DNA from: a virus
Direction: 5' to 3' (one strand)
Length of the DNA: 26,634 nt
Virus record (IMG/VR): IMGVR_UViG_3300043438_002022
Coordinates: 1-26,634 of that record
The notes under the pieces are model-generated. The model made no database searches. It was not told where the DNA came from and saw nothing but the letters and a program-made list of their open reading frames with translations. Positions 25 to 24,537 of this stretch are shown here, piece by piece (position 1 is the stretch's first letter; every line of letters begins with the position of its first letter). The translations under genes and the position numbers were made by a program.

Positions 25-3012
25 TCATCGACCGTTTCCTGCCGCCATAACCGAACTAACATTTTTTCCATCTAAATAAACTCTTACAGCGCCGCCTGTG
101 AGTAGATTGGTTAGTGTATCAAGTTTTCCTTCTATACCGGATGTGTTTATAGTTGTATTGGTTGATGGTGCATTTTTTTCTGGCGTATTTGTACTAGCAG
201 CAAGTTGTGACAACTTAGAAAGTTCATCGCTCTTAATTGCGCCAAGTTGATCATTTAATTTGCCCAATGAATCTGCCAACTTAGATATTGAATCGGCAAA
301 TGCATTTATAGAAACAAATGATGCAGCAGCCATAGAAATATCTTTCATAGCTTCGGCAGACATTTTTAGTCGCTCACTTAAATCTGCTAATTTTTGAAAT
401 TTCTCAAAAGGATCACCTGTAAAAAATGAAAGAAGTTTTCCACCGACCGACGCTCCTGCAAATAGAGCAAGTGAAATACTAAGTGCAGAAATAGCACCCG
501 CTGCGGCGTATAGTAATGGAGAAATCAAAGCAAACTTGATAAATGGACCGATTGCATTTGGTATAACTTTTGCAATCGACGTGAATGCGTTGGCTGCAAG
601 TTTTCCGGCATATGCAAATCCAACGAACGCCGCGCTAACTCCCATAAGTATTAGTACACCAAGACCAACCTTTGGATTTCCTAAAGCAGAAAGTCCCAGC
701 GATAATCCAATTAAACCAGCACCAACCGCTTTTCCACCGACTGCAACCGCAATGAATCCAAGTATACCGGCGGTCATTGCCAAAAATGCGACACCCGTTG
801 CGCCAAGGTTAAATGCACCTGCAAAAACTTTACCAGTTCCCATCTTTGTTAGACCCGTTGCCAAATTAGAAAGAAAATCTTTAATTCCGGTTCCACTTTT
901 AACATCCTTAGTTGTTTTTGAAATTTTTCCAACTTCGTCAACAGAACTTGGTAATTTGGGTCCAATAAAATCTCCCACCAATCCTTTTTTTGTGGCATTT
1001 GTAAAAATATTTTTTGCCATAGAAACGACTGCTTTAAATGGTTTTCCAATCGCAGTCACCAGTGAACTAAATCCACCTTTTCCAAAAAATAAATAACCCA
1101 AAATTCCGGCGGTACCGAGAGTTCCGAATATTGCTTTAGCGAGATCGCTTGTTAAAGCTTTTGAAAGTCCTTCGGACTCGTCCATAATTTTTGTTATTTC
1201 ATCTGCAACTTTTCCAAGCAGTCCTGCCAAAAATTCTATTGGTAACAACAGTCCTTTAAATATCGGAGATAGAATCTTGGCAATTGATGCTATAAATTTA
1301 AAAATTGGAACAACCGTTGTTGCAAGTGCTGTAATTATCGGTTCAAGAATATCTCCAAGTGAGACTACGATGGACTCCATTGTATTTTTCAACTTGGTCA
1401 TAATTCCTTGCATTTTTTGTTGGCGAATAGCACGGTCTCCCTCTGCAAGCAATCCTTCTTTACTCAAGTCGTTTTCTTGTTTTAATTTTTCCAACGCTTC
1501 TGTTTGCATCTTGAGTTTAGCTTTTTGCTCGTCAGTTCCACGAAGTTCAATTTCGCTGCGTTGTGCTTCAACCGCCATCATCTTGGTCAAATCTTTTAAT
1601 TCCATTCCAGACGCTTTAGCCAACGCCTCGCGTTGGTATACATTCATCGCGTTAAAATCTCCAGCGGCTTTCACACTATCAAGAGTTGCTTTTGCCGCAC
1701 CTTCTATATCACCATCATATGCTAATTGACGCGCTTTTTGGAATGATATACTTCTACCTAATAATGCACTCGCTTCTAGTTCTTCATTAATACTTGAACT
1801 AAAATCTAAAAGCTTTCTTTGTGAAGATACAATTTTATTTAAATCAGTTCCAAGTGCTCTTGCTGCAATCGCAGACTTCATGAGTTTGCTTGGATTTGCT
1901 CCTAACAAAGCAGTTGTTTGCTCAGACGCATTAGCAATGTCTTTCATTACTAAACTAAAAGGTATACCAGCTTTTTCAGAAAAACTTGCACCAACCTTCA
2001 TCACATTCATTGCTGCTTCTTGAGTTACTTTACCAAGACCTTGGAATGTAGCAAGTACATTAGCAGAGTCTTCGGCTGCAACACCTAGATTTACAGACAT
2101 CAATGAAACATTTTGCATTGCTTCTCTTGAAACCAATGAAGTTCTACCAAATACATCAGTTAATGCTTTTGCGGATGTATATACTTCATTTATACCAACA
2201 CCCATATCTTGAAACTCGACGTTAATAGATTCTGCATTTTTACGCAATTCTACCATTTGAGTATTACTAAATCCAGTTTGTTTTCTAAAATCTTCGGCAG
2301 CTTTGTCTAATGCAATGAAACGATCAACACCAGCTTTAATCAGCGTGTTAAATAACATGAATCGCAATGGAATTACTTTTATGTTTTCGCTAAATTGTTT
2401 AGCTTTTGACGCCATCTCTCCAAAAGGTCCGAGAGCAGCATAATTTGAATCTTCTAGATGTGCCATATAACCGGCTTGCGATCTTATGTTTTTTAACAAT
2501 TCTTGATTAGCTTTTAACTCTTCTTCTGCCGCTTTAACATTTGTATCACTTCTATTTTTTATACCTACCATAGCCGACTCTCTTAATTGTATATCACGGA
2601 TTGCTTTTTTGTTAATGTCTTCAATAAGATCCCACCGCCCTTCGGCCTGTGCCGCAGTCACGTCGTCATTTTGTTTTTTCTTTAAATTAATAATCTCTTG
2701 TTCTAAACGGGTTTGAGCACGCAGGCCGGCCATTTTTAAATAAATAATTTTTTGTTGAGATTTTCCTATATCAGACGCCATTTGACTCTCTATCGTAGCA
2801 CGTGCTTTTGTATCTGATAAAATTTGCTTATTGAAACTGTTAGAAAGTTTTGACGCATTTTGATTCTTTTCCATTTCAACATTCAACTTTTTAAAAGTAC
2901 CAACCATTTTTGATGCAAGATCGGCGCTTTCGGCCATGTTTTCTTTTTGTTGTCGTGTTAACTCGACAATTGCTTTTTCCTCCTTAGTAAGTTTTTCCTT
3001 TTCGTCAGCCAT
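25..3012 (-). CDS. Tape-measure-like tail protein
   Basis: 995 residues, ATG start. The N-terminal fifth is rich in Lys, Glu and Gln and looks coiled-coil. The middle is helical. Roughly residues 625-865 hold several long Ala/Gly/Leu/Ile-rich hydrophobic stretches, and the protein ends in a short polar tail with the segment VRVYLDGKNVSSVMA. Long helical proteins with a hydrophobic centre are typical of tape-measure proteins, which set tail length and enter the cell envelope on ejection. The position just downstream of two gp26-type baseplate hub genes fits this. T4's own tape measure, gp29, is shorter (about 590 residues), and I see no clear gp29 signature, so the family is inferred from architecture and context. 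There is no Shine-Dalgarno sequence, only an A/T-rich leader with a TATTTATA box 28 nt upstream. A large hub or virion-internal protein is the alternative. Confidence 0.7.
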   Translation of the reverse strand: MADEKEKLTKEEKAIVELTRQQKENMAESADLASKMVGTFKKLNVEMEKNQNASKLSNSFNKQILSDTKARATIESQMASDIGKSQQKIIYLKMAGLRAQTRLEQEIINLKKKQNDDVTAAQAEGRWDLIEDINKKAIRDIQLRESAMVGIKNRSDTNVKAAEEELKANQELLKNIRSQAGYMAHLEDSNYAALGPFGEMASKAKQFSENIKVIPLRFMLFNTLIKAGVDRFIALDKAAEDFRKQTGFSNTQMVELRKNAESINVEFQDMGVGINEVYTSAKALTDVFGRTSLVSREAMQNVSLMSVNLGVAAEDSANVLATFQGLGKVTQEAAMNVMKVGASFSEKAGIPFSLVMKDIANASEQTTALLGANPSKLMKSAIAARALGTDLNKIVSSQRKLLDFSSSINEELEASALLGRSISFQKARQLAYDGDIEGAAKATLDSVKAAGDFNAMNVYQREALAKASGMELKDLTKMMAVEAQRSEIELRGTDEQKAKLKMQTEALEKLKQENDLSKEGLLAEGDRAIRQQKMQGIMTKLKNTMESIVVSLGDILEPIITALATTVVPIFKFIASIAKILSPIFKGLLLPIEFLAGLLGKVADEITKIMDESEGLSKALTSDLAKAIFGTLGTAGILGYLFFGKGGFSSLVTAIGKPFKAVVSMAKNIFTNATKKGLVGDFIGPKLPSSVDEVGKISKTTKDVKSGTGIKDFLSNLATGLTKMGTGKVFAGAFNLGATGVAFLAMTAGILGFIAVAVGGKAVGAGLIGLSLGLSALGNPKVGLGVLILMGVSAAFVGFAYAGKLAANAFTSIAKVIPNAIGPFIKFALISPLLYAAAGAISALSISLALFAGASVGGKLLSFFTGDPFEKFQKLADLSERLKMSAEAMKDISMAAASFVSINAFADSISKLADSLGKLNDQLGAIKSDELSKLSQLAASTNTPEKNAPSTNTTINTSGIEGKLDTLTNLLTGGAVRVYLDGKNVSSVMAAGNGR

Positions 3013-5905: not shown

Positions 5906-6697
5906 TTATTTTGCGATCAATTGTTTTGAAGCTTTATCAAAACTTAATGTAATCTTGTTATTGGATTGATTTAGTTTGCCGTCAATTTCTAATTCTTTAG
6001 CAGACTCAATCTTGTCGTATACAGATTGACCAATCTTTACATTTGGATCAAGAGCGTCTGGCAATTCAGACATAACTTCTTGTTCAATATATTTCTTGGC
6101 TGCTGGCCATGTGTTGTTGATAAAATCATAATCTAATTCAATAGCTTTGCCGTCTGGCATAACTGCTGAAACAATCAATGGAACAGAAGTGGCTGTTGCT
6201 TGGCCGGGTGCTGCTGGTTCTGCACCTTTCTTTGGACGACCCATTCCTGCAATGCCCTTTGGAACATATGGTCCCTTTGGAGCTTCTGTTGGCGTGCCGT
6301 CTGGAATAGATGGATGGCCAGATACTACCCATTTACCCGGTGCAACTTCTTTCTTAAATTTTGACGATATTGCTCCAGCAGTGCGAGGCATTTCATTTAT
6401 GCGAGATTGCTCAAGAGCTTCACGAACCATACTAAGGATTTCTTCTTTTAGTGAAGCACCTGTGGATGGAGTTGCTGGCTTTTTAACTACTGGCAATTTC
6501 TTACCTTCTGCTTTTTCTTTTGGTTCTGAATTTGGAGTCAAACTCTTGGAAGTAGCAATGTCTTCTGTGTGTTCAGATTTGTCTGAGGTCTTCTTAAAAC
6601 CAGACAAACCTTTGGTTTCAGCTAGACGCTGTGCTTTTACTTCGTGAAGTTCTGTCACGATTGCTTTGATTAGTTGCTTTAGTTCTGATTTTTTCAT
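5906..6697 (-). CDS. Leader-tagged protein A (possible internal head protein)
   Basis: 263 residues, unrecognised function. It begins MKKSELKQLIKAIVTELHE, the leader shared with the next three genes upstream. Residues about 25-175 are low-complexity (Lys, Pro, Ser, Thr, Ala) and probably disordered, with a GMGRPKKG stretch near residue 150 resembling an AT-hook core. About 175-263 look like a compact alpha/beta domain ending in KQLIAK. L17-H18-E19 fits the L/I-x-E site cut by the T4 prohead protease gp21. Its first 48 bases match those of the gene at 7942-8577 at 42 positions. No Shine-Dalgarno sequence is seen. It is last of the four tandem leader genes. Confidence 0.6.
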   Translation of the reverse strand: MKKSELKQLIKAIVTELHEVKAQRLAETKGLSGFKKTSDKSEHTEDIATSKSLTPNSEPKEKAEGKKLPVVKKPATPSTGASLKEEILSMVREALEQSRINEMPRTAGAISSKFKKEVAPGKWVVSGHPSIPDGTPTEAPKGPYVPKGIAGMGRPKKGAEPAAPGQATATSVPLIVSAVMPDGKAIELDYDFINNTWPAAKKYIEQEVMSELPDALDPNVKIGQSVYDKIESAKELEIDGKLNQSNNKITLSFDKASKQLIAK

Positions 6698-6719
6698 ATT
6701 ATTAGTTTTTAAAATTATA

Positions 6720-7607
6720 TTACCATGCTCTACATGACCAGTATCTTGCTTTGTGTCTTGGACCTGGATTTGCGCAATTGTGTCTAGCTCTAAAACTCTT
6801 GCGACGTTTTGGAATACTTTTTTTAATTCTCATTTTCTTGTCGCCAAAATTAACTTTTACAACATTGCCTTTTGGGTTCTTGACATAAACTTTTGATTTT
6901 TTTACATCGCCCTTCATTGGAACGCCAAGTTTAACTTTACGACCTTGATATTCTGCTTCTTCAATTTTAGCATCTGCATTAAAATCTCCATACATTTCAT
7001 AAAATTCATCACCTTCACATGTGTGTTCATCGCCTTCTGGAATCATGTCCCATTTTGGTGACTCGTAGTATTCTTCCAAATCTTGTTCTTCCATATTAAA
7101 CTTAGATTTTGGGTTGGTATGGCACCACTCACATTGTTCTTGAGCAGGTTCACCAGTATATTTGTCGCTGACTGCATACCATCCTTGATTATTGCAATGA
7201 GGACAATCTTCTCCTTCAGTTTCGTTGATTTTTGTTTTCGGCATTCCACTCTCAATCCATTTTTTTACTTTTTCAATGTTTTCTGGACTGTATGGATTAT
7301 ATTCATAAGGGTTCATATCAACATCATGCACTTTACCGTCTGGACCCTTTACGTAAAAAAATAGTTTCATATTGTCTGGTTCTCTATCTTCTTCCATCCA
7401 ATATTTAAATACACCTTTTGAGGTTTGAATATCTTTGGCATATTCTTCTCCGGCCATTCCTTCCTTTACCGGTACACAGTTTGGTACTTCTTTACCACCC
7501 TTGTTCTTGGTGCCATATGCTTTGTATCCTTTCCAGCATGGATTTTCCATCTTGGATACTTCTTCAACAACTTCAATAATCAATTTTTTTAGTTCCGATT
7601 TCTTCAT
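6720..7607 (-). CDS. Leader-tagged protein B, cysteine-rich
   Basis: 295 residues, unrecognised function. It starts with the shared leader MKKSELKKLIIEVVEE. Directly after comes NPCWKGYKAYGTK...VPNCVP (C24, C44), a short module I recall from many marine phage proteins of unknown role. A four-cysteine knuckle follows at CPHC (135-138) and CEWC (159-162), resembling half of a DnaJ-type zinc finger. The C-terminus is very basic and ends RHNC...YWSCRAW. IIE at 10-12 fits a gp21-type L/I-x-E site. Translation probably starts from AGAGGA overlapping the stop of the upstream gene (6 nt gap), one of the few Shine-Dalgarno-like sites here. Confidence 0.6.
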   Translation of the reverse strand: MKKSELKKLIIEVVEEVSKMENPCWKGYKAYGTKNKGGKEVPNCVPVKEGMAGEEYAKDIQTSKGVFKYWMEEDREPDNMKLFFYVKGPDGKVHDVDMNPYEYNPYSPENIEKVKKWIESGMPKTKINETEGEDCPHCNNQGWYAVSDKYTGEPAQEQCEWCHTNPKSKFNMEEQDLEEYYESPKWDMIPEGDEHTCEGDEFYEMYGDFNADAKIEEAEYQGRKVKLGVPMKGDVKKSKVYVKNPKGNVVKVNFGDKKMRIKKSIPKRRKSFRARHNCANPGPRHKARYWSCRAW

Positions 7608-7612
7608 AGTAT

Positions 7613-7936
7613 TTATCCTCTACCTTTGATGCCACTGATCTTGTCTATAATCTGACCTTGCTTCTTTGAGTATACCGCTTTCTTTCTTTCTAATGCTTCT
7701 ATCTTTCTTTGAACCGGCGCATGTAATTTAGTAATATCCGAATCAATCTTGGCAATATCATTTTTCATTTTATCTAAAGCGGACTGATAAACAACCAATG
7801 ACTTTTTGTCTGCATCACTCAACCCATCGTTCGAGGCTTGTGTATCTGCAATAGCATTTGCTCCAATTTCTCCAATCTCTTGGAGTTTCTTTTTAACAAT
7901 AGACTGAACAATTTCTCTTAGTTCGGAGCGTTTCAT
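7613..7936 (-). CDS. Leader-tagged protein C, small coiled coil
   Basis: 107 residues, unrecognised. It opens with MKRSELREIVQSIVKKKLQE, the most diverged copy of the shared leader. The rest is a charged helix (about 45-95) likely to form a coiled coil, ending SGIKGRG. LQE (18-20) and IGE (21-23) are L/I-x-E type sites. It is 5 nt from gene D upstream and 5 nt from gene B downstream, so the three are surely one transcript. Its small size and helical character would suit a minor head-core or scaffold-like protein, but nothing in the sequence proves that. Confidence 0.55.
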   Translation of the reverse strand: MKRSELREIVQSIVKKKLQEIGEIGANAIADTQASNDGLSDADKKSLVVYQSALDKMKNDIAKIDSDITKLHAPVQRKIEALERKKAVYSKKQGQIIDKISGIKGRG

Positions 7937-7941
7937 AAATT

Positions 7942-8577
7942 TTATTTACCGTGCATCTTTAGAATAGCATCAGCAGCTTCTTTGGCTTTTTTAGCTAATT
8001 CAACTTCACGCTTTTCTTCTGGATTTTTCATATCTGTTTCGTCGTGAGATTCTCCTAATTTTGCAGTTGGCACAAAATCAATACCGTTTTCTTGTGATAG
8101 TTCATCTACTAATGAATCAACTTCACCCGTTGGACCTGAAATCTTAAATTCATAATACTTGGTTCTTTCATCATCCCAAACTTTACCAAACTTGGCATCT
8201 CCCATCCATTTCATTTTAACACCATGTTTTTGAATAATTGCAGCAATTTCATCGCCGGTCATTGGATAAACTGTGTTATCAACGTGAGCAATATAAGCAA
8301 CATTCTGACCAGATACATCTTCATTCATTCCTTTAGCTTCCCAAGCAGCCCACATTTCATTTACTTTAGCATGACCTTCGTTCTTAGCATTATGCATCTT
8401 CCACATAGTAGCATAAGCTTTTTGTGGTACATCTTTATACTGTGCCAATAGTTTCTTTTTTAATGCAGACGGGAAATCAGGTGGAGTTCCTTCTTGTAGG
8501 TTGGTTTCAGCAACTCCAAGTCCGATAGCTTCTGTGACAATTTGTTTGATTAGTTTCTTTAGTTCTGATTTCTTCAT
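7942..8577 (-). CDS. Leader-tagged protein D
   Basis: 211 residues, unrecognised function; first gene of the leader-tagged series. The leader reads MKKSELKKLIKQIVTEA, with LQE at 27-29 as a possible prohead-protease site. Residues about 32-80 contain FPSALKKKLLAQY...KAYATMWKMHN, a helical module I recall from other marine phage proteins. A compact alpha/beta stretch (about 90-165) follows, then a charged helical tail ending ILKMHGK. A TATTTATA box lies 29 nt upstream and a sigma70-like promoter about 120 nt upstream, so this gene probably opens the operon running down to 5906 or beyond. Confidence 0.6.
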   Translation of the reverse strand: MKKSELKKLIKQIVTEAIGLGVAETNLQEGTPPDFPSALKKKLLAQYKDVPQKAYATMWKMHNAKNEGHAKVNEMWAAWEAKGMNEDVSGQNVAYIAHVDNTVYPMTGDEIAAIIQKHGVKMKWMGDAKFGKVWDDERTKYYEFKISGPTGEVDSLVDELSQENGIDFVPTAKLGESHDETDMKNPEEKREVELAKKAKEAADAILKMHGK

Positions 8578-8747: not shown

Positions 8748-10454
8748 TTATATCAAATCCATCTCATATTTTAGATTTCCACAATCCCAAATACGATTGT
8801 ATCCATTATTTTGCATATTCTGCCATTCGGTTAAAATAGCATCAAATTTAGGTAATTTTGATTTTAATACTTGTTTTCTGAAACCAAATCTATGGTATTT
8901 ATTATAATATCCATTTTTAAAATACCAATAATTTGGAGGAGATATATGCGACAGTTTCATTCCTATTGAACTGTATATATTTTTGTGTATATATGTAAAT
9001 CTGCGATCTGCATAACTTATTATTTTTTTAGGACAATGTTCAGATATAAACACTTTTAAAAACTTTGAAACAATTCCAACTATAGGAATTGAAGTTGCAA
9101 ATCTAACTAACTCATATGTATCTTGGTTTGATTTCTTGATGCCAAGCGCAGCTCGTTCTTTTCCGAATGTAATAACTGATACCAATTCTTTATTGTAAAA
9201 TGCACCATATCGTATAGACGATATATCTTTTCCTTGTATGTGATATGTATCAAGAAACTTATCCTTTTCAACATTTGATATTTTAGATATAACCAATTCT
9301 CGCGCACCTATTCTTTTTTCGGATATAAAACGAGAACGTAATTTTTGTTTTACTATTTCTTTTTTATTTTTCCATTCATCTTCAAATATATGAATTAGAT
9401 GTATATTATTTGCCTCACACTCTGTGGTTTTGAGTAAATGATATTTTTTTGATTTTCCTGCCATCTCTGAGTGCCAGTATAGTCCATTAAATTCAATAGC
9501 AATTTTCTTTGATGGAATGTATATATCAAGCTCTAAACCGGACGGTAAAATATCTTTACTATTTTCAACTATAGATTCACTGGTAATAGATTTTATATAA
9601 TCTACTATTTCTTTTTCCGCGATAGATGTTTTTTCGTATTCTATTGGATTGCACTTTAGGCAGCGAGGAAGATGTCCGCCGTCTATATGATCTGAAAATA
9701 TGTCACTGCACGATTTGCATTCAAATTTGTATAAATTGATTCTATCTGTGTTGATATATTCTTCTTTTGTGAATAAAGGAATATATCCAACATTCAGCTT
9801 GTGTTCATTTAATAATTTATCGTAAAAAGAATCAATAAATTTTTTACGCTTTGTTTCTTTAACGTGCAACATTTTGCTTGGATGTTCTGCACCGTATTTA
9901 TCAAGATTTGTTTGCTTTATTTTTTTCCTGATATCACTGGATTGAAATGGATTTTCCACACCATTATTAAGCAAGCAAGTTTTTTTCTTTTTATCTTTTA
10001 TATCATCGCGTTGAGATACATGTTTTACTCCATACAATTTAATATTATGCAATTTTGTTTTTTCTATCATTTCTTCGGATTGGAATACCCAATCTACGCC
10101 AAACTTTTTTTGATTTGTATCTTGTATCTTTTTTAAGACTTCTTGACTTTTTGACGCATTGTCTACTCCGTATTTACTTAAACAAGTAAGTTTAGCTTTT
10201 TCTGAGTTTACATATGTTTCGCTTCCATACTTTTCTAGCTTTGTCTTTTTAATCTTGGCAATTCTTTCTGGATTTCTTGCCACATATATTCCGCTGCATT
10301 TTGCCGAACAAGTTTTTTGTTCACGTTTTATCAATGACCAAAACGGGGTATTACAAATTTTACAATTTGTTTCGTGCCAAAATTTTAAATTTTTTTGCAT
10401 ACCAACATTATGATCATTTTTGCTTATGTTGTCAATTTCTATATTTTTGAGCAT
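8748..10454 (-). CDS. Homing-endonuclease-like protein, Vsr-type nuclease with GNAT/Mom-like C-terminus (copy 1)
   Basis: 568 residues, ATG start. In order: a zinc knuckle (C31, C34, C49, C53); five or more repeats around (K/L)(Y/F)GVxxxSQ at about 72-195, a pattern seen in large phage homing endonucleases; a second CxxC pair (C246/C249, C265/C268); and a nuclease core LELDIYIPSKKIAIEFNG-LYWHSE (D310, E321, H328) followed by IHIFEDEW, resembling the Vsr/EDxHD fold. Residues about 385-515 resemble GNAT-fold proteins of the Mom type (VITFGKER, then IISYADRRF, then an aromatic PPNYWYF). The paralogue at 14290-16278 shares the whole plan. The ATG sits immediately after the tube-gene terminator, so expression needs readthrough or its own promoter. 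Such genes are usually selfish and cut genomes lacking them. The site it targets is unknown. Confidence 0.78.
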   Translation of the reverse strand: MLKNIEIDNISKNDHNVGMQKNLKFWHETNCKICNTPFWSLIKREQKTCSAKCSGIYVARNPERIAKIKKTKLEKYGSETYVNSEKAKLTCLSKYGVDNASKSQEVLKKIQDTNQKKFGVDWVFQSEEMIEKTKLHNIKLYGVKHVSQRDDIKDKKKKTCLLNNGVENPFQSSDIRKKIKQTNLDKYGAEHPSKMLHVKETKRKKFIDSFYDKLLNEHKLNVGYIPLFTKEEYINTDRINLYKFECKSCSDIFSDHIDGGHLPRCLKCNPIEYEKTSIAEKEIVDYIKSITSESIVENSKDILPSGLELDIYIPSKKIAIEFNGLYWHSEMAGKSKKYHLLKTTECEANNIHLIHIFEDEWKNKKEIVKQKLRSRFISEKRIGARELVISKISNVEKDKFLDTYHIQGKDISSIRYGAFYNKELVSVITFGKERAALGIKKSNQDTYELVRFATSIPIVGIVSKFLKVFISEHCPKKIISYADRRFTYIHKNIYSSIGMKLSHISPPNYWYFKNGYYNKYHRFGFRKQVLKSKLPKFDAILTEWQNMQNNGYNRIWDCGNLKYEMDLI

Positions 10455-10519: not shown

Positions 10520-11014
10520 TCAAAATTGTAGGATGCAATAATCTACCGTGAGCGTTACGTTAATAAGCAACGCTTCTTGAGAACTCCAGTCAAGACCAGA
10601 GCCATTGAAATCAACAGCCGATGGAAATGCGCCTTTTAATTGCCATTCTTCTACTACGTCACCGACCGGACCAAGAACTTGGATAGTAACGTCTTTTTTG
10701 TAGAAATCTGCATACCCGTTACGACCAGTAACAGATTCGTGAGCCAAACGTACCCACTCCATACAAGCTTGTGCAGCAGATGGAACGATTGGGTCATATA
10801 GTGTGATAGCAACATCACCCCATTCACTCTTACCTTTTAGCTTGCGCTTTAAGTTGATGTGATCTAGCGTAATTACACCGTTATTGATAGAAGGACGAGC
10901 AGCAGCTTTGATTAAGTAAGCTGGAATTCCGTCGATGTTCATGATAAAACGGTTTTGAACTTTTGGTTCATAAGCCGTAAAGAATATTTGATTTGCTTCT
11001 AGTAGTTCTGCCAT
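10520..11014 (-). CDS. gp19: Tail tube protein, T4 gp19-like
   Basis: 164 residues against 163 for T4 gp19. It shows the expected plan: a helix-poor protein with QNRFIMNIDGIPAYLIKAAARPS near the start, DITLYDP-like AITLYDPIVPSA in the middle, and a C-terminal beta hairpin (LINVTLTVDYCILQF). Tube subunits stack as hexameric rings inside the contractile sheath and form the DNA channel. ATG start without a Shine-Dalgarno sequence; a TATTTATA box lies 33 nt upstream, and the gene ends at a strong intrinsic terminator, so it is probably transcribed alone. In T4 it directly follows the sheath gene; here about 5.4 kb of other genes separate them. Confidence 0.9.
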   Translation of the reverse strand: MAELLEANQIFFTAYEPKVQNRFIMNIDGIPAYLIKAAARPSINNGVITLDHINLKRKLKGKSEWGDVAITLYDPIVPSAAQACMEWVRLAHESVTGRNGYADFYKKDVTIQVLGPVGDVVEEWQLKGAFPSAVDFNGSGLDWSSQEALLINVTLTVDYCILQF

Positions 11015-13689: not shown

Positions 13690-14274
13690 TTATTCTGGCA
13701 AGAATTTCTTTAGTTGAGATATAGAACTAGCTGCACCTGTATGCAATATAGCAACGCGATGTAATGCAGTATTATCCCAAGCATCAATATTTTTTTGCAT
13801 ATCATCAATAAGCACATGAGTAACACGACCTGGTATATCTAAGATATATTCTGGTTTTCTTGGACCAGAGCGAGCAATAATCACTTTTACATTTGGATCA
13901 ATATGCTTACGAATCCAAGCAGTCTTTTGTTCTGTGATAGTAGTGCCTTGACCAGCACTCAAAATAACAGGAGCTGGATTTTTGAAATTGTCTCTGATAA
14001 AATCCCAAAGAATTCTAGCATCTGGATTTGGTTCAAGATTAATCCAAAAGTTTGGAACAGCGTTAATAAGTTGCCAGAACCTCTTTTGACCAGCTTTCTT
14101 GTCACCTTTAAATTCTGGAAGATCATAAATTTCTTCTGGTAATAGACCACCGGAAATTTCTTTGAATCCTTTATCCATATTTACGAGGACTCCATCCATG
14201 TCCACGTAGCACTGTATTTTTAATGGGTTCTTTTCTTCAATCTCTTTTAATAAGTTCTTTAGTAAAATTTGCAT
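13690..14274 (-). CDS. HAD-superfamily 5'(3')-nucleotidase-like phosphatase
   Basis: 194 residues. HAD motif I is VDMDGVLVN (D25, D27), motif II is VILSAGQ (S106), a basic motif III is near K140, and motif IV is VLIDD (D157, D158). Size and motif layout suit deoxyribonucleotidase-like HAD phosphatases, which dephosphorylate nucleoside monophosphates; the substrate is not provable here. The first 15 residues (MQILLKNLLKEIEEK) form an amphipathic helix before the first strand and recall the leader of the genes at 5906-8577. It heads a tightly coupled trio with the nucleotidyltransferase and the flavodoxin-fold gene. A TATTTATA box lies only 6 nt before the ATG. Confidence 0.78.
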   Translation of the reverse strand: MQILLKNLLKEIEEKNPLKIQCYVDMDGVLVNMDKGFKEISGGLLPEEIYDLPEFKGDKKAGQKRFWQLINAVPNFWINLEPNPDARILWDFIRDNFKNPAPVILSAGQGTTITEQKTAWIRKHIDPNVKVIIARSGPRKPEYILDIPGRVTHVLIDDMQKNIDAWDNTALHRVAILHTGAASSISQLKKFLPE

Positions 14275-14289: not shown

Positions 14290-16278
14290 TCACAGTTTGG
14301 GATTAGTCCATATATATTTCAAGTTCCCGCAATCCCAAATGCGATCAAATCCATTGTTTTTCATATTTTCCCATTCTGTGATAGATGCGTCAAATATAGG
14401 CAGTTTCTTGTGCAATACGCCTTTTTGAAACCCAAATCTATGAACTAATTTATATGGATCGGACATGTTAAAATACCAATAATTTGGAGAAGTTATACCC
14501 ACAAATGAAAATCCAATTTTTTCATAAAAAGCCCGCATTCCTGAGTATCTTATATCCGCGAACGTTGTTATTTTTTTTGGTTTATAGTTTTCTATAAAAT
14601 AAGTTAGTAATTTTCCACCAATACCAATAACAGGTGTTTCACCTACCGCAAAACGATACATTTCATATTCATCTTGCTTTGAGTGTTTTGTACCTAATGC
14701 AACTCTACCTTTTCCAAAAGTCATAACTGCAACAAGTGTGTTTTCAAAAAAAGCACCCAATTTTACTGTTGAGCGATCTGTTCCTTGGATATGATATGTT
14801 TGTAAGAACTTCGAGCAAACATCAGATTCTATTTCTAAAATTTTACATTTTCTAGCAAAAATAGATTTATTGATTGTACTGTGTGATTCGCTAATTATTT
14901 TATTAGATCCGATAAGATTAAGTATTTTACGTTTTACGATATTTTTTGATACTGCCCATTCATTTTCAAATATATGAATTAGTTTTACACCTTTATCTGC
15001 GGCCATTTTTGTTTTGTGTATATGATACTTTTTTTCTTTTTCACCAAAAAATTCACTATGCCACACAATTCCGTCAAATTCAATAGCTACACTCTTGCTT
15101 GGAATATAAAAGTCTAATTCAAGCGGTGATATAAGCTGGCGGTCATTTTGTTTAATCTCACAGTCGATTGGAAGATGTTCTTTTAAAAATTCTAATATTT
15201 CCAACTCCGGACGAGATCTTACTGACGGATAGCATCGCTGGCATTTTGGAACTTTACCATCTTCAAGCACCGCATCAAAACAAACATCACACGACGTGCA
15301 TTTAAATTTATAAAATAACTGCTCATCATTTATTCCCCGTGTACCCTTATATTCTTCACGTGTAAATAATGGAACTGCTTGACCATCCAATCTGCTACCA
15401 GATACAATTGAATAATAAAATTTGTCAATATTGGTGGATGAAATTTGAGCAGCAACATTTTTATTTTGAGACACATGTTCTACTCCATACTTTTCGCGTA
15501 TAGTTTGTTTTGCTGCCGCTGATTGATATCCCAATGTTCCATTTTGCAATCTTTCCATTATGCTTTTGATTGCAAAATCGCTTGTCATCTGTTCACCAAA
15601 GTGAGCAAATTTAGTGTCATTTGATTTTTTAACAAACTCTTCTAGCTTTGAAATATTTTCCACTCCATATTTTTCTAACAATGTAGATTTAAGTTTTTCT
15701 AGATTGTTATAATTTTTATTACCATACTTTTCTAGTTTTGTTTGAGAAGCTTTTTCTGGATTAACAAAATTTTCATCTCCATACTTTGCTTTTTTTGTTG
15801 CTTTTAATTTTAACGCAAAACCTGGAATTTGACTTGAATGAGATACGCCATATTTTTCTTTTATAGTTTTCTTTAAACTAGATTGTACTTTAGATTTAAA
15901 TTCTGGAAGGTTTGTATACTCATTCTGACATGCGGTCGAACATGTAACTCTGTTGTGTCGTTTATCCGTTTCAAACAACTCGCGACAAATAGGACAAGAT
16001 TTAATAATGGGCGCTATAATTTTTTTTGAGTTCAAACATTTATATGAACATGTTTTTCTGTATCCTTTATAATAACTATTAAATATTGTTGGGCCGTTGC
16101 ATACTTCACATATACCTGTACCCGTTCCATTTATGTGCTGATACATTTTTTCACCAAATGTGCTGCCTTGGTATATAGAATTTATTTCATTATATACATT
16201 TGGGTATAGTCGTTTTAATTGAACACCAAAATTCTCTCTGTTATTTTCTATAAAATGTAACAATTCTTCTTTATTCAT
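14290..16278 (-). CDS. Homing-endonuclease-like protein, Vsr-type nuclease with GNAT/Mom-like C-terminus (copy 2)
   Basis: 662 residues from the ATG at 16278; a TTG nine codons upstream (16305) is less likely. It has more zinc knuckles than copy 1: C57/C60 with C77/C81, C95/C98 with C113/C117, and C327/C330 with C346/C349. KYG-type repeats span about 138-275. The nuclease core is LELDFYIPSKSVAIEFDG then WHSE (D389, E400, H407), followed by LIHIFENEW. The GNAT/Mom-like section covers about 476-605 (VMTFGKGR, ITTFADIRY, SPNYWYF), and the tail FDASITEWENMKNNG...WDCGNLKY nearly equals that of copy 1. It stands directly downstream of the sheath gene and its terminator and upstream of the metabolic trio. 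It probably acts as a selfish nuclease; the target is unknown. Confidence 0.78.
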   Translation of the reverse strand: MNKEELLHFIENNRENFGVQLKRLYPNVYNEINSIYQGSTFGEKMYQHINGTGTGICEVCNGPTIFNSYYKGYRKTCSYKCLNSKKIIAPIIKSCPICRELFETDKRHNRVTCSTACQNEYTNLPEFKSKVQSSLKKTIKEKYGVSHSSQIPGFALKLKATKKAKYGDENFVNPEKASQTKLEKYGNKNYNNLEKLKSTLLEKYGVENISKLEEFVKKSNDTKFAHFGEQMTSDFAIKSIMERLQNGTLGYQSAAAKQTIREKYGVEHVSQNKNVAAQISSTNIDKFYYSIVSGSRLDGQAVPLFTREEYKGTRGINDEQLFYKFKCTSCDVCFDAVLEDGKVPKCQRCYPSVRSRPELEILEFLKEHLPIDCEIKQNDRQLISPLELDFYIPSKSVAIEFDGIVWHSEFFGEKEKKYHIHKTKMAADKGVKLIHIFENEWAVSKNIVKRKILNLIGSNKIISESHSTINKSIFARKCKILEIESDVCSKFLQTYHIQGTDRSTVKLGAFFENTLVAVMTFGKGRVALGTKHSKQDEYEMYRFAVGETPVIGIGGKLLTYFIENYKPKKITTFADIRYSGMRAFYEKIGFSFVGITSPNYWYFNMSDPYKLVHRFGFQKGVLHKKLPIFDASITEWENMKNNGFDRIWDCGNLKYIWTNPKL

Positions 16279-16281
16279 ATG

Positions 16282-16289
16282 GATAAATA
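16282..16289 (-). promoter_or_regulatory. Near-match TATTTATC box before endonuclease copy 2
   Basis: Coding strand CTTATATTTATCCATATG, seven of eight bases of the recurring octamer, 4 nt before the ATG. Like the copy before the HAD gene it lies unusually close to the start. Confidence 0.3.
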
Positions 16290-16334
16290 TAAGAGAACCC
16301 CACAAAAACGCAAGACGTTTTTTCTTATGGGTAC

Positions 16335-16388: not shown

Positions 16389-19367
16389 TTACGCGGTTGG
16401 GAACGAAGCACCCGTTGGCATGACGTTAAAATCGAGTACGATGAATTCCGCCGTGCGAGTTGGTTGAATATAGATTTGACCGTACAAGATGCCACGATCA
16501 ACTAGATCCGGAGTATTGTTGGTTTCATCCATAACAACTTTGAACGAGTAGATACCGCTGCGTTGTTGTACGCTCTCCAAGTATGGATTAACGATGTTCA
16601 AGAAACGTTGGCGAGTTGTTGACACATTCTGCTCAAACACTAGGAATCTTGAAGAAGAAGCAATGAACTTCTTTAGAGCAATCAGCAAGCGACGAACGTT
16701 AATACGATCCAATGCGGAAGGATTACGTTGTAGTGTCTTTTGACCCCATGCTACTACACCTTGACCTGGGAAAGCAGCGATTGGGTTGATATGGTTTTCA
16801 TATAGACTATCACGTTCGGTGTGTGTTAAGCGGTCGGCGACTTGTACTGCGGTTGGAATGCCACCACGGTTTAGACCGGCTGGAGCAAACCATTCTGCGG
16901 ATACTTTGTCGTTAGCAGCAAACACACTCATCATCACAACGGATGGTGGAACTGGCATAATCTTGTTGCTGTTTGTTTCTTGAATCTTGACCCATGGGTA
17001 ATAGGTAGCAGCATAGTTTGTGTCAAACTGAGCAGCTAGATCAATTACGGTTTGGATACTTTCAGCACCAGCCATTTGGTTGTGAGCAATGTCCATAATA
17101 TAGAAAGCATCGCCACGATTTTCACAAACTTCGATTACTAGCGATGCAACATATGGATGATCGTTGTAATTGATGCCAGGAACTGTGATTAGATTAAAGT
17201 CAAACTCATCAGCGTTACTTAAAGCAGCCAAGGATTGCTTGTATGCATAAGAACCATTTGATTTGTTTGTGGAGCAATCTAGACCTTGTTGATTGGTTGG
17301 CAAGATTTCATTGCCGATTAGGATTGGAAGAGACGGACTTTGACCATCAAATCCACCTTGGAAGCCAAGAACAAAGCGACGTTTCTTAACGTTGATGCTT
17401 TCATCATTTAGAACATAAGCTGCGGTGATTCCGCAATCTGTTTCTAGACTGAATGCTTTGTTTGATGCTGCACTTGAGCCAAGTGGGATTGGAGCAAAGT
17501 ATTGCTTGTTGTCTAACTCTGGACCAACGGACGAACCATTTGGATATAGAGCGGCCAAATCAGCGTCGGCTTGTGACGGAGCTGGTTGGAATACAACACC
17601 AGAGCAGTAACGGCCTGGTTGCATCAAGTAAGCAGATGCACTTGTGTATTGCATTGCTGGTAGTTTAGCAAGACGAGCATAGTCGCCACCGATTGGTGAG
17701 GCATATGGTCCAAATCCGAATGGAATTGAATCTGCTGGCCATGGAGATGCTGCCATCTCAACACGAATGCGCTTGCTCTTGTTTACGAAATCACCAAACT
17801 CAACGATCTTGCCGTTGAAGTCAATATAGTTATAAACATCGCCGATACGACGAGCAACATAGTTGCTGCTGTTTACATCTAGATTTACGTTGTCGTAGCG
17901 TTCTAGAACTAGTGCTCTTGCGTCTGTGTCCGCGTAATCTCTTACGATTAGAGAGAACGAGCCGTAACTTGTACCAGGAATTGAACCAGCGGATTTAACA
18001 TTGCTGATTTCAATCTTGTACATCTTGTTGGCAGCTGTGCCGTCAGACAAGGTATGAACCTTGAACAAGTCATATGCAGAAGATGTTGCGGTGTTAAAAC
18101 CAGCAACCAATTGCGATTGAATGAATGGTGTTTCAGCTTGGCGCAGGTCAAAAGTAGATGTACCAACATCTGGAGTAATGCCATCAGCAAATTCCATATT
18201 GTTACGATTACTGATTTGAATCTTCCAACTACCAGAAGCAACCAACTCATTAATAATTTCTTTTGTTCTGTTTTTGAAGTTTGCATATGTATAAGCAGCT
18301 TCAATCTTTTGGCCAGAGGCTACTGGATAATAACCAGCTTTTGGATCTGTTCCGAATACATTTGTCAAATATGCTGACGATTCTTCTGCTAGAGAGAATT
18401 GATATGTGCCATAAGAGCCACTTGCATATTGATTGGTGTCTGTGTCGAAGTATGTTTTGTTTAGTTCTAATACAAAGTCAGAACCAACAACAGTTGCATC
18501 TTTTGGAGTTAATACAGAACCGCTGAAACCGTATAGGTTTTGTCCACGGTCATAAGCAGTGTTAGCCAAGATAGCTAATACAACTTCATCACGACCAGTA
18601 ACCATCGAAGCAGTTCCGCAATCATCTTCACTAGATACTGTAACTGGTGTCCAATTATTTGGATTTAGAGCACCATAACTTCCACTCAATATACCAGTGA
18701 TTTGTAGCTCATCGTTGCAATGATTGATTTCAGCGAGCGAGATAGACGAACTATACAAGAAAGCAGTACTTGGTAAGTTTGATGTAGCGAGTTGTTGCGA
18801 TGATACATTTGTAGAAACGAATGTACTACCGGTTGAATTTGTACTACCGGCAGAGGTAGAGAAGGCAATATCACCAACAACAACGGTTGAACCGGCATAA
18901 ATGCCAGAAGAGAATTCTAAGCTCAATGAGCCAGAAATAACGAATACGCCAGTTGTTCCTGTGTATGTATATGTTGCACCAAGAATGACACCACTGAAAG
19001 AACCGGATTCTGTGAAACGGCCATATGCACCAGGTATTGCACTGATGATAAGAGCGTCATTTTGAACATAGCCACCAAGACCACCAACGCGGCAAACGGT
19101 CACTTGACCTTGCTGACGTAGGTATTGTTGAGCGGTAATTGGACCGTATAGTGTTCCGTCTGGATCACCGAAGATGCTTGATAAGTCACCTTCACTGGTT
19201 ATTACCGTAGGAGAAAAGCCCGGTCCCTTGTTGAAAGGGGCGACTACTACTCCGCCGATTGCTGCTACGCCCTGTGCTAGAAACGACTGGTCGATTTCGC
19301 GGGTGAATACACCTGGTGAAACGATGCGCTCTGACGGGCTGTAATTTCCATTTTGTTCTATTGCCAT
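16389..19367 (-). CDS. gp18: Contractile tail sheath protein, T4 gp18-like
   Basis: 992 residues, much longer than T4 gp18 (659). The N-terminus has SPSERIVSPGVFTREIDQS and GVVVAPFNKGPG, and the C-terminal third has WFAPAGLNRGGIPTA, INPIAAFPGQGVVAWGQKT, NVRRLLIALKK and FIVLDFNVMPTGASF. These are the conserved core elements that interlock neighbouring sheath subunits. The extra length lies in the Ser/Thr/Gly-rich middle (about 100-500), likely surface-exposed domains. Sheath contraction drives the tube through the envelope. This start has the window's clearest Shine-Dalgarno sequence (AGGAG, 10 nt upstream) plus a TATTTATA box 42 nt upstream, and the gene ends at a strong terminator. All of this fits heavy late expression as a single-gene transcript. 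Confidence 0.93.
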   Translation of the reverse strand: MAIEQNGNYSPSERIVSPGVFTREIDQSFLAQGVAAIGGVVVAPFNKGPGFSPTVITSEGDLSSIFGDPDGTLYGPITAQQYLRQQGQVTVCRVGGLGGYVQNDALIISAIPGAYGRFTESGSFSGVILGATYTYTGTTGVFVISGSLSLEFSSGIYAGSTVVVGDIAFSTSAGSTNSTGSTFVSTNVSSQQLATSNLPSTAFLYSSSISLAEINHCNDELQITGILSGSYGALNPNNWTPVTVSSEDDCGTASMVTGRDEVVLAILANTAYDRGQNLYGFSGSVLTPKDATVVGSDFVLELNKTYFDTDTNQYASGSYGTYQFSLAEESSAYLTNVFGTDPKAGYYPVASGQKIEAAYTYANFKNRTKEIINELVASGSWKIQISNRNNMEFADGITPDVGTSTFDLRQAETPFIQSQLVAGFNTATSSAYDLFKVHTLSDGTAANKMYKIEISNVKSAGSIPGTSYGSFSLIVRDYADTDARALVLERYDNVNLDVNSSNYVARRIGDVYNYIDFNGKIVEFGDFVNKSKRIRVEMAASPWPADSIPFGFGPYASPIGGDYARLAKLPAMQYTSASAYLMQPGRYCSGVVFQPAPSQADADLAALYPNGSSVGPELDNKQYFAPIPLGSSAASNKAFSLETDCGITAAYVLNDESINVKKRRFVLGFQGGFDGQSPSLPILIGNEILPTNQQGLDCSTNKSNGSYAYKQSLAALSNADEFDFNLITVPGINYNDHPYVASLVIEVCENRGDAFYIMDIAHNQMAGAESIQTVIDLAAQFDTNYAATYYPWVKIQETNSNKIMPVPPSVVMMSVFAANDKVSAEWFAPAGLNRGGIPTAVQVADRLTHTERDSLYENHINPIAAFPGQGVVAWGQKTLQRNPSALDRINVRRLLIALKKFIASSSRFLVFEQNVSTTRQRFLNIVNPYLESVQQRSGIYSFKVVMDETNNTPDLVDRGILYGQIYIQPTRTAEFIVLDFNVMPTGASFPTA

Positions 19368-21247: not shown

Positions 21248-24200
21248 ATTTGGCTTCTAGTGCGGCGAGGCGGGTGCGGAGGGACTTGAGTTCAGCGATA
21301 GCCAGCGGCATGAACTTGGAGGCGTCCATTGCCCACTGTTGCGTGACTGTCTCCGGGTCGTCGTCGCCCTTGGTCACGGCCTGCGGGAAGATGGAATAGA
21401 CCTCTTGAGCGATGAAGCCGTAGGTGTCTTTGACGCCGGATTTCCAGTCGTGGAGGACGGGCCGCAGGGAGTCGATGATGCTACCGGAATTGGTCAGCGG
21501 GCGGATGTTGGTTTTTAGCCGCGCATCCGATGACGTGTTGTATGCCGTCGCGGTGGTGGTGACGGAAATGGTTCCCACTTGGGTTGTGTCGCGCCGGAAA
21601 ACAACTACCGCGCCATCGTCGGTGCGGCGGCGAATGTTGACCGAGGCATTGCTTGCGCGTGACACGTTTAACTCCGCGCCGTTGCTCATCGTCACGCCGT
21701 CCGTGGTGCCCGATGAGGTGTCGCTCACGTTGTTGCCCGACCAAACAGACCCCGTCGCCCCCAACGCCCCAGTCACGGCGACAGTACCAGAACCTGTGAT
21801 ACGCAGGCGTTCAGTGGAAGAAGCGCCTGTTAGGAAAACAATATGGGCGTTGTCAAACCCCTCTTGCCGCCCTTGAAAAATTAGGTCGCCGTAATTAAAG
21901 CCACTTAGCGATTGTGCCGCATAGATTACGGGTAGCTGAGAATTCGTAGGTTTGGAATTAGCAAACTGGCCAAATGCAAGAGCGCCGTTCACTTCAAGTT
22001 TATATCCCGGCGTCGTCGTCCCAATGCCGACGTTACCGCTGCTGTCGATACGCATACGCTCGGTAGAAACCGTAGCAAATTTCATGTTGCTAGATGTGTC
22101 TACAGTAAACCAACCTTTTTCAACGGTGTTTGCATTATTGACCCACTGAATAAATGAACCTTCCGCATCCGCTGCGGCTTGACGAAGAATAATTGCTCCT
22201 GTTGTCGCGGCGGCGTTTTGGATAAAACGCCCGTTTCCGTTTACGTCCAATTTTGTACTGGGACTTGTCGTTCCAATTCCGACGTTGCCGGTCGTAGAAG
22301 CAATCGTCATCCGCTCGTCTGTTCCCGTTCGGAACCGCAAATCTAAACCACCGGTTTCGGCGTTATTCGTGCTTGAGATAAAAGAATACTGTCCGACGCC
22401 GCCCTCAAAATATGAGCCGAGAACAAGCCGCTGATCTGCGTTATCGACAACAACTTTTGCGATAGTCCCAGAAGTTCCACTGAAGAATCCGTTACCGGCT
22501 ACATGAAGCTTGAAGCCGGATTCTATCGAGGTCGTCCCAATACCGACGTTACCGCTGCTGTCGATACGCATCCGCTCCGTGCCAAAAGCAACATTGGCCG
22601 TACCTAATGATTGGCCTGTGGCTCCAGTAAAAAATGCCAACCCTGTAGAAGCTGCGCTGGTAGAAGTCCAATTTGCTTCTGCAATTGCACTGATACTGGC
22701 TGGGTAAGTGAATGTGGGTGTGGTGTTGTAATTTCCACCAAAATAAATTGTTCCAAGTGCGTTGCCACTAACAATACCGGTTGAGCCGTTAGACATGTAA
22801 CGTTCTAAGACAAGACCACCACTAAAACCTTGAGAAGAATTAGTATCAACGCGATTTCCTTGAACTCTAATGACGGGCGAAGCATTGGCAGCATCCGTAT
22901 CTTGAACAAAGATACCACCAGTTACATTGTTAGCAGAAATTGAAAGTTTATAAGAAGGACTCGTCGTGCCGATGCCGACGTTGCCGCCTTTGGCTAATAC
23001 CAGTCCAGAACCCCACGAGTCTCCAAATATATTTAATGCCATATAACTATTGGAATAACTTGCAGCAGATGTTCCTTTGTAAAAACCAATTAATGCTTCT
23101 TTTCCTGAAACCGCCGACTGTCCAATCGAAATACTCATCAATTGAGAATCGGGTTGGGATGGTTGAAAAAAGTTGGCGACGTTTTGATAGTTTGTAGTTC
23201 CGGATGTGTTTACATCTAAAGTTGCCAAAGGACTCGATGTGCCAATACCGACGTTGCCGTTAGAAATTATACGAACAGCTTCATTAGTTGTACTTAATGC
23301 CAAATAATTTGTTGAATTGTTAGTAATGCCACTAGCAACAATAGAATTTTTATATGCACCTTGCTGTAATACCTGTAGTTGATAACCACCACCTTCAGCG
23401 GCGGCAACATTGAATTCAACATTAGCAAACATTTTAACATAATCTGCTTTTGTAGATGTTGAATTTAATCCACTGAATATAAGTCCAGATAATGCTCCAG
23501 CAGAGGCGGTGCTACCTATATCAAGTTTAGCACTTGGACTGCTCGTGCCAATACCAACACTACCATTATCAAAAATACTGCTACTACCAATTGTATTAGC
23601 ACCTGTAAATTTAGTTACATAGTTTGTTGTGCCATTTGATACACCAGCAAAATAACTCGCAGTTGATGCTAAACTAGATGTTCCTGTGATCGGACCATTT
23701 ACACTTAAACTACCACTTATACTTACACTACCTGTAAATTCTTGTTTATCATTACTAGCATCGCCAAACTTGTTGCTGCCTGTAATGACCATAACACTAC
23801 TTGTAACATACTCTACAGTTAAGTTTGTAATTTTAGCAAAACTTGCTGTAACTTGATTAACTGTAATATTACTATTAGTATCAAATGCAACGCCGCCGCC
23901 GTTACTTAATTGAGCAGAAGATGAAACAACATTATTTGGAAGAACATAAATGTTTGGAGCATATGATGCACTAAGTGCTGCTAGTGCATATGAAGCTGTA
24001 GATATATAACTTGCAGTTTGAGCTAATAAGACATACGATGCTGTTTGTGCTGTTGTTACAAAACTTGCTGTTTGTGATTGTATTGAAAAGCTTGATGTTA
24101 ATGAATATGAAGCACTGACTGCATTTAATACATAACTAGCACTAAGAGCATACGAAGCACTAAATGCCTGTTCTGAAAAACTTGCTGTACCAAAAATACT

Positions 24201-24428
24201 GCCAGTAATTTTAGCAAAACTTGCTGTAACTTGACCAAAGGTTACATTACTAGTAGTATCAAAAGCAGCACTATTGCCGTTTGTAAATTGAGCACTACCA
24301 CTAACTAGATTGCTTGTTACTAAAATACTTGTGCCGTTGTTCCAACTTTTTCCATTCCAGATCCATGAAAGAGAGCCAGTAGAAAAAATTTGATTTAGCG
24401 TTGGGTTTGATGGAAATATTAGTGCCAT
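21246..24428 (-). CDS. Tail fibre-type protein with S74 intramolecular chaperone (fibre 1)
   Basis: 1060 residues. The N-terminal part (to about 170) has many ASYxL/SASYA repeats and PNNVVSSSAQLSNGGG. Then comes the module FTGSVSISGSLSVNGPITG and six copies of a G(N/S)VGIGT(S/T)(S/T)P-type repeat, a beta-structured shaft motif common in phage fibres. The last 94 residues (from S967, SDARLKTNIRPL...) form a peptidase S74 chaperone, which trimerises the fibre and then cuts itself off before that Ser. Likely role: receptor-binding fibre or fibre-like appendage. DNA near the 3' end is G+C-rich while the 5' end is A/T-rich, a sign of mosaic origin. Fibre 2 upstream shares the N-terminal module. 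No box or Shine-Dalgarno sequence precedes the ATG. Confidence 0.85.
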   Translation of the reverse strand: MALIFPSNPTLNQIFSTGSLSWIWNGKSWNNGTSILVTSNLVSGSAQFTNGNSAAFDTTSNVTFGQVTASFAKITGSIFGTASFSEQAFSASYALSASYVLNAVSASYSLTSSFSIQSQTASFVTTAQTASYVLLAQTASYISTASYALAALSASYAPNIYVLPNNVVSSSAQLSNGGGVAFDTNSNITVNQVTASFAKITNLTVEYVTSSVMVITGSNKFGDASNDKQEFTGSVSISGSLSVNGPITGTSSLASTASYFAGVSNGTTNYVTKFTGANTIGSSSIFDNGSVGIGTSSPSAKLDIGSTASAGALSGLIFSGLNSTSTKADYVKMFANVEFNVAAAEGGGYQLQVLQQGAYKNSIVASGITNNSTNYLALSTTNEAVRIISNGNVGIGTSSPLATLDVNTSGTTNYQNVANFFQPSQPDSQLMSISIGQSAVSGKEALIGFYKGTSAASYSNSYMALNIFGDSWGSGLVLAKGGNVGIGTTSPSYKLSISANNVTGGIFVQDTDAANASPVIRVQGNRVDTNSSQGFSGGLVLERYMSNGSTGIVSGNALGTIYFGGNYNTTPTFTYPASISAIAEANWTSTSAASTGLAFFTGATGQSLGTANVAFGTERMRIDSSGNVGIGTTSIESGFKLHVAGNGFFSGTSGTIAKVVVDNADQRLVLGSYFEGGVGQYSFISSTNNAETGGLDLRFRTGTDERMTIASTTGNVGIGTTSPSTKLDVNGNGRFIQNAAATTGAIILRQAAADAEGSFIQWVNNANTVEKGWFTVDTSSNMKFATVSTERMRIDSSGNVGIGTTTPGYKLEVNGALAFGQFANSKPTNSQLPVIYAAQSLSGFNYGDLIFQGRQEGFDNAHIVFLTGASSTERLRITGSGTVAVTGALGATGSVWSGNNVSDTSSGTTDGVTMSNGAELNVSRASNASVNIRRRTDDGAVVVFRRDTTQVGTISVTTTATAYNTSSDARLKTNIRPLTNSGSIIDSLRPVLHDWKSGVKDTYGFIAQEVYSIFPQAVTKGDDDPETVTQQWAMDASKFMPLAIAELKSLRTRLAALEAK
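22015..22064. repeat. 50-bp direct repeat in fibre 1, copy 1
   Basis: Matches 22531-22580 at 47 of 50 positions. It encodes the ERMRIDSSGNVGIGTT stretch on the minus strand. Shorter, more diverged copies of the same shaft repeat lie at about 22266, 22963, 23238 and 23543. Confidence 0.85.
22531..22580. repeat. 50-bp direct repeat in fibre 1, copy 2
   Basis: Second copy of the repeat at 22015-22064, differing at three positions. Such near-identical copies allow loss or gain of the intervening 516 bp by recombination, which keeps the reading frame (516 is a multiple of three). Confidence 0.85.
23900..24000. repeat. Fibre N-terminal module, copy in fibre 1
   Basis: About 100 bp closely similar to 26211-26310, encoding SASYAPNIYVLPNNVVSSSAQL on the minus strand. 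It shows that the two fibre genes share their proximal part through duplication or gene conversion. Confidence 0.75.
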
Positions 24429-24448
24429 AAGAAAATTAGTTTAGATTG

Positions 24449-24468
24449 TATATATTTTTGCCGCGAAT
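24449..24468. repeat. Seam repeat, copy after fibre 2
   Basis: TATATATTTTTGCCGCGAAT, 17 of 20 bases as at 21228-21247, again at an A/T-rich to G+C-rich boundary following a fibre gene. Confidence 0.5.
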
Positions 24469-24473
24469 GTTTT

Positions 24474-24536
24474 TTAAGATAGTGAATAACCAGCGGCTGT
24501 GTATAGATTCTGGAGTGCTACTTGGTCGGTGGACAT
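24474..24536 (-). CDS. 20-codon ORF after fibre 2
   Basis: ATG one base after the fibre 2 stop (TAACATG), 20 sense codons (MSTDQVALQNLYTAAGYSLS), then TAA. It keeps the G+C-rich composition of the fibre 3' end and stops where the DNA becomes A/T-rich. The DQVALQNLYTAAG stretch resembles the beginning of larger proteins, so it is more likely the cut-off start of a gene that came with the fibre segment than a working peptide, though coupling to the fibre stop could allow translation. Confidence 0.35.
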   Translation of the reverse strand: MSTDQVALQNLYTAAGYSLS

Positions 24537-24537
24537 G

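Follow-up and report, generated by a model that had tools for sequence, protein, structure and literature searches.

In phage T4, the first 10 residues of the internal protein IPIII suffice for head targeting, the prohead protease gp21 cuts after L/I-X-E, and a conserved capsid-targeting sequence (CTS) of about 10 residues is carried by internal proteins that are otherwise diverse anti-restriction and takeover proteins (PMC9026906, PMC5694885, PMC3012670). In phage P1, the capsid-targeting signal of DarB consists of its N-terminal 30 residues and was reported to work on a reporter (PMC9024508). Phages phiKZ and SPN3US have a Glu-specific prohead protease related to gp21 and head proteins that are packaged and partly ejected (PMC9026906, PMC5694885). 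The leader described here is like the T4 CTSs (IPI/II/III, Alt, and gp67/68/22) in being short, N-terminal, followed by L/I-x-E, and attached to diverse bodies, and it is like that of DarB in that it would send cargo into the head of a myovirus, which here is a prediction from sequence. Dar proteins have no common N-terminal consensus, whereas one clear consensus runs across all the cargo here; likewise, the propeptides of phiKZ and SPN3US are long and cut at (S/A)-x-E, unlike those proposed here (PMC9026906, PMC5694885). No earlier description of this leader was found in the open-access literature searched.

The window, i.e., the whole stretch analyzed (26,634 nt, positions 1 to 26,634 of IMGVR_UViG_3300043438_002022), is a fragment from an uncultivated T4-like myovirus of bacteria. 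It covers a tail region without any head gene, and its main genes all lie on the minus strand. In reading order, these are fibers, the sheath (16389-19367), a homing endonuclease, a nucleotidase, a nucleotidyltransferase, the tail tube (10520-11014), a second homing endonuclease, four leader genes, a lipoprotein, two gp26-like baseplate-hub proteins, and a probable tape measure (25-3012). The two putative homing endonucleases (8748-10454 and 14290-16305) are large and related to each other (Zn-ribbon and repeated KYG motifs) and split the tail module. A near-complete 297-kb relative (G053), whose sheath, tail tube, and gene 7942 orthologue are 70%, 82%, and 73% identical to those of the window, lacks the endonuclease corresponding to 8748-10454 between the tube and the leader cassette.

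The earlier note had claimed that four consecutive genes encode different bodies behind one N-terminal leader, and all four ORFs were found on the minus strand: gene 7942 (7942-8577, 211 aa), gene 7613 (7613-7936, 107 aa), gene 6720 (6720-7607, 295 aa), and gene 5906 (5906-6697, 263 aa). The consensus is M-(K/N)-K-S-E-L-K-x-(L/I)-I-x-E-x-(I/V)-..., and the tag, including the cut site, spans 20-29 residues. Over residues 2-20, identity was 13/19 for genes 7942 and 5906, 11/19 for 7942 and 6720, 10/19 for 6720 and 5906, and 5-6/19 for pairs with 7613. In 20,000 composition-preserving shuffles, no pair scored above 9/19, so three genes are significant individually and gene 7613 is a diverged member; in its orthologues the leader is clear (MTRSQLK.IIQE.V.RKLSE). 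When the N-termini of the window and twelve related contigs were compared all against all, the leader was the main block common to non-homologous ORFs. The other pairs exceeding the control were fiber ORFs, signal peptides, and short M.. pairs in four contigs (G026, G002, G023, and G024); for the comparison within G053, the control was inflated by repetitive fiber ORFs. Pfam, NCBIfam, and PADLOC searches with the four leader proteins assigned no function, and their only PHROGs matches were of unknown function and fell on modules of gene 6720. The tblastn searches of annotated phages with the leader, gene 7942, and the head-core leader family gave no useful match.

For gene 7942, 46 related loci were found in IMG/VR. 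Its leader (8491-8577, residues 1-29) is predicted to be cut after LQE 27-29 (8491-8499), directly ahead of a body starting with xxPPxFP. In 22 unique orthologues, the body starts with xxPPxFP or xxPPGM and is directly preceded by [LI]xE in 20 and by MxE in two; the junction [LI]xE is kept while the length of the linker varies by up to approximately 15 residues. The leader of gene 7613 (7877-7936, residues 1-20) has its predicted cut after LQE 18-20 (7877-7885), ahead of a Lys/Ile/Asp-rich body that is probably helical. LxE occupies 18-20 in all nine unique orthologues having a leader of the window type, and four further orthologues carry another leader, M..(S/N)SVFN.AVNMM...DL[NRK]E, which likewise ends in LxE.

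Gene 5906 contains a long conserved disordered linker (EGKKLPVVKKPATP). Its leader (6617-6697, residues 1-27) is predicted to be cut after LAE 25-27 (6617-6625), and [LI]xE directly precedes the body start, [T/S/G/N]KGLSG, in 22 of 24 unique orthologues; a linker deletion in one orthologue shifts the junction [LI]xE to 20-22, and the orthologue in G003 has no [LI]xE. The earlier note had named one L/I-x-E triplet in each of the four proteins. All four are present, but LHE 17-19, named for gene 5906, was rejected as its conserved site, as it occurs in only 3/24 orthologues versus 22/24 for [LI]xE directly ahead of the body. A second candidate [LI]xE of gene 5906, INE 100-102 (6392-6400), follows a predicted leader-like helix (residues 83-101); E102 is invariant in eight orthologues, with mostly I and otherwise V or T at the -2 residue. 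LAE 25-27 and INE 100-102 flank a conserved disordered segment (6392-6617, residues 28-102) that might be releasable as a peptide. The AlphaFold models of genes 7942 (pLDDT 58; helix 3-19, disordered 16-28) and 5906 (pLDDT 54), both of low confidence, suggest a helix, a disordered linker, and a body, and Foldseek with one of them returned no significant match. In several relatives, including G053 and G013, the gene 5906 leader lies inside a longer ORF with LQE just ahead of it. At G053 24101-25156 (L582) and in G013, L052, L058, and L060, an in-frame fusion is seen, leader-body-LQE-NKTT-MKKSEL..., with a second leader within one ORF.

Gene 6720 comprises the leader (7548-7607, residues 1-20), a PCWKGY...VPNC module, an acidic Cys region, and a C-terminal basic YWSC module. 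The only candidate site is IIE 10-12 (7572-7580); its orthologues have I-x-E there (IRE) and none at the leader/body junction, and this is the weakest of the four predicted cut sites. The PCWKGY...VPNC module (7463-7547, approximately residues 21-48) is also found in hypothetical proteins of many cyanophages. The C-terminal module (6723-6962, 80 aa, EEAEYQG...HNCANPGP...YWSCRAW) has at least 597 related IMG/VR stretches, in myo- and siphophages, where it is usually C-terminal with varied N-termini ahead. In the Kyanoviridae phage C48C1 it is preceded by a T4-style leader (MKKFKQYIDE), in the Pelagibacter siphophage Kolga it has none, and elsewhere leaders of several other types stand ahead of it (e.g., starts MKTLKEYITEAE and MKSFKEYLLE). 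Conversely, at two loci (L011 and L023), the gene 6720 slot holds a different 118-aa body behind the same leader. Leader swaps are seen on both the gene 6720 module and the gene 7613 body.

The earlier note had counted the lack of a gp21-type protease in the genome as refuting its reading; when this was checked on G053, a Peptidase_S77 protease was found (E = 5e-26). It conserves T4 H85, S140, and D168, the catalytic triad of gp21. The head module of G053 runs terminase, portal, leader gene (274,387), two genes, protease (275,753), scaffold, and gp23-type capsid protein, which places a leader gene three genes upstream of the protease; G053 also has the leader cassette between tube and hub. In relatives, the 43 members of one leader family sit immediately downstream of the gp21-like protease; terL, portal, scaffold, and the major capsid protein (MCP) also have leader genes beside them, nearly all on the same strand. 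In G022 (170 kb), the gap between protease and scaffold is occupied by three leader genes, two of them clear and the third diverged (gene starts MKKSELKKLIEDVI, MNKQQIKNLVQKQI, and MKITRTELKKIIKEVI). Most of the 25 leader-selected contigs that reach 60 kb are fragments, yet 19 contain the protease; as leader genes cluster near head genes, this count does not test the association cleanly. [LI]xE is also conserved in the MCP propeptides of this lineage (27-28 of approximately 28 MCPs). No protease was found in the 40-90-kb contigs of the window clade, because these contigs end before the head module. Following a small holin-like gene toward the head module led to contigs with accessory genes only. 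Two side observations concern the head genes: in G024 (L025/L138), the protease frame at 35552-35974 has three TGA codons, perhaps the mark of a recoded phage, yet leader genes are present; and G004 contains an isolated gp23-type capsid-protein fragment (69856-70005) within a short ORF far from tail genes.

A rival possibility is that the leader is a docking helix that brings proteins to the tail tube, tape measure, or hub, with [LI]xE being incidental. In its favor, the window and its relatives have the cassette flanked by tail-tube genes on one side and baseplate-hub/tape-measure genes on the other; this neighborhood is weak evidence, because late genes are expressed from long common transcripts. 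Contractile injection particles also use N-terminal leaders to load cargo, and the present leader resembles those loading tags, although their cargo lies in the tail lumen and no prohead protease takes part. Tail docking does not account for the same leader on proteins adjoining prohead protease, portal, and terminase, nor for [LI]xE being kept at the leader/body junction, and we consider it unlikely.

In IMG/VR, two scans with DNA patterns and one based on the sheath together recovered 214 proteins with the leader, and grouping their bodies gave 118 mutually unrelated sets. In most of these 118, the patterns had constrained residues 1-12 and left later residues free; I-x-E at 10-12 is therefore not independent evidence there. 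At residues 13-24, [LI]xE was found in 87/118 bodies, compared with 41 expected from per-protein shuffles (maximum 59 in 2,000 runs) and 51 from column permutation between proteins (maximum 63); the frequency in non-leader ORFs of G053 was 11%. E peaks at residues 16, 19, and 20, the end of the conserved part.

This enrichment is not predicted if the leader is a generic, never-cleaved interaction helix for some other phage assembly (core scaffold, membrane, or phage-coded complex), and neither is the persistence of [LI]xE before the body as the linker changes length. A helix is predicted for the leader, and a few leader genes do lie away from structural modules (G053 95,738; G053 139,632-140,448; G027 at approximately 54,000), both of which a generic helix would accommodate; we nevertheless regard this explanation as improbable. 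The G053 genes at 139632-140448 are three consecutive small genes (76, 95, and 101 aa) with nearly identical MKKSELKALIKEV leaders, possibly a second cargo cassette.

At the DNA level, the earlier note had reported that the leaders of genes 7942 and 5906 agree at 42 of 48 bases and that the rest of the genes do not align. The first value was exact. Over bases 61-108 only 11/48 positions are identical, and the 25 bases that precede the two ATGs did not match. The 42/48 identity and the exchange of bodies behind the leader could reflect a translation-initiation site or a recombination seam for gene swapping, with no role for the peptide. Against this, 2-6 codons differ synonymously between the window leaders, orthologous leaders keep the peptide while their DNA differs widely, and the upstream DNA is not common to leader genes, which makes a DNA-level feature very unlikely. 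Tandem genes with a shared start could also be relics of a gene duplication whose copies diverged extremely, with no tag function, but the 118 unrelated bodies with different modules and the replacement of the leader on one and the same body leave this explanation hardly any credence.

A second, shorter, T4-style leader, M..LK.(I/L)L.E, was observed on enzymes in the window (13690-14274) and in relatives (G027 43578; G028 38785; G053 89998 and 100571; G026 11282 and 13062). These include an NT5C-like nucleotidase (MQILLKNLLKE), a DnaQ-like exonuclease (MIKLKDILKEA), and a Nudix-like protein (MIKLKDLLPES). The strict pattern occurred nine times, against 0.8 in shuffles (maximum 4). The window example is an NT5C/HAD-type 5'-nucleotidase on the minus strand (PF06941, E = 3e-5, just under its cut-off), and its orthologues have L[KR]E ahead of a variable linker; it is possibly a fifth tagged protein of the window.

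We consider it probable, with good confidence, that the MKKSEL-type leader is a capsid-targeting sequence that is cut at L/I-x-E by a gp21-type protease, freeing the body in the head. The earlier note had read the four proteins as internal head proteins, and comparison across hundreds of environmental contigs supports this reading through the protease, the junction [LI]xE, and the leader genes of the head core; it needed correction for gene 5906, whose site is 25-27, and for gene 6720, which has no conserved junction site. Points against capsid targeting are the position of the cassette among tail genes, the lack of a conserved junction site in gene 6720, the G003 orthologue of gene 5906 without [LI]xE, a window that contains no head gene, the dissimilarity of the leader to the N-termini of T4 head-core proteins, and the few leader genes outside structural modules. 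The tag would consist of an amphipathic N-terminal helix, a short flexible linker, and the L/I-x-E site. During prohead assembly, the helix would dock each tagged protein onto the scaffold core, and the protease would then cut after the E of L/I-x-E, so that the body is set free inside the head alongside the DNA. Ejection of the bodies into the host is a more speculative step. The four window genes would form an exchangeable cargo cassette inserted between tail-tube and baseplate-hub genes, and their products would be present in the head, cut, and released; by analogy with T4, we would guess at a counter-defence role for the four bodies.

The best explanation appears to be that the leader is a kind of capsid-targeting sequence not previously described, analogous to that of the T4 internal proteins. 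As in T4, a gp21-type serine protease is encoded in relatives, and the leader is also found on proteins adjoining the protease. Unlike the T4 CTSs, the leader has a different sequence and is longer (approximately 20-29 residues versus 6-20), the cassette lies between tail tube and hub, many more unrelated bodies are tagged, and the system is known here from genes alone. The T4 proteins compared by sequence were gp67, gp68, gp21, gp22, gp23, and gp24, and none has a leader-like N-terminus. We propose that the leader works like those of T4 and do not claim homology.

More broadly, and with slightly less than even confidence, it may be that a large uncultivated T4-like lineage with genomes of up to approximately 300 kb relies on a single undescribed capsid address code for packing, maturing, and ejecting more than 100 fast-changing, unrelated protein families, beside a shorter T4-style code on enzymes. 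Identifying the proteins carried within phage heads normally requires mass spectrometry of purified virions, and a tag with a cut motif would let the cargo of uncultivated phages be read from their sequences. The cargo genes would be strong candidates for early host-takeover or counter-defence proteins, and the leader swaps may serve as natural experiments on head targeting. If the proposed function is true, the proteins that phages pack and inject could be predicted from the leader even for phages that have never been grown.
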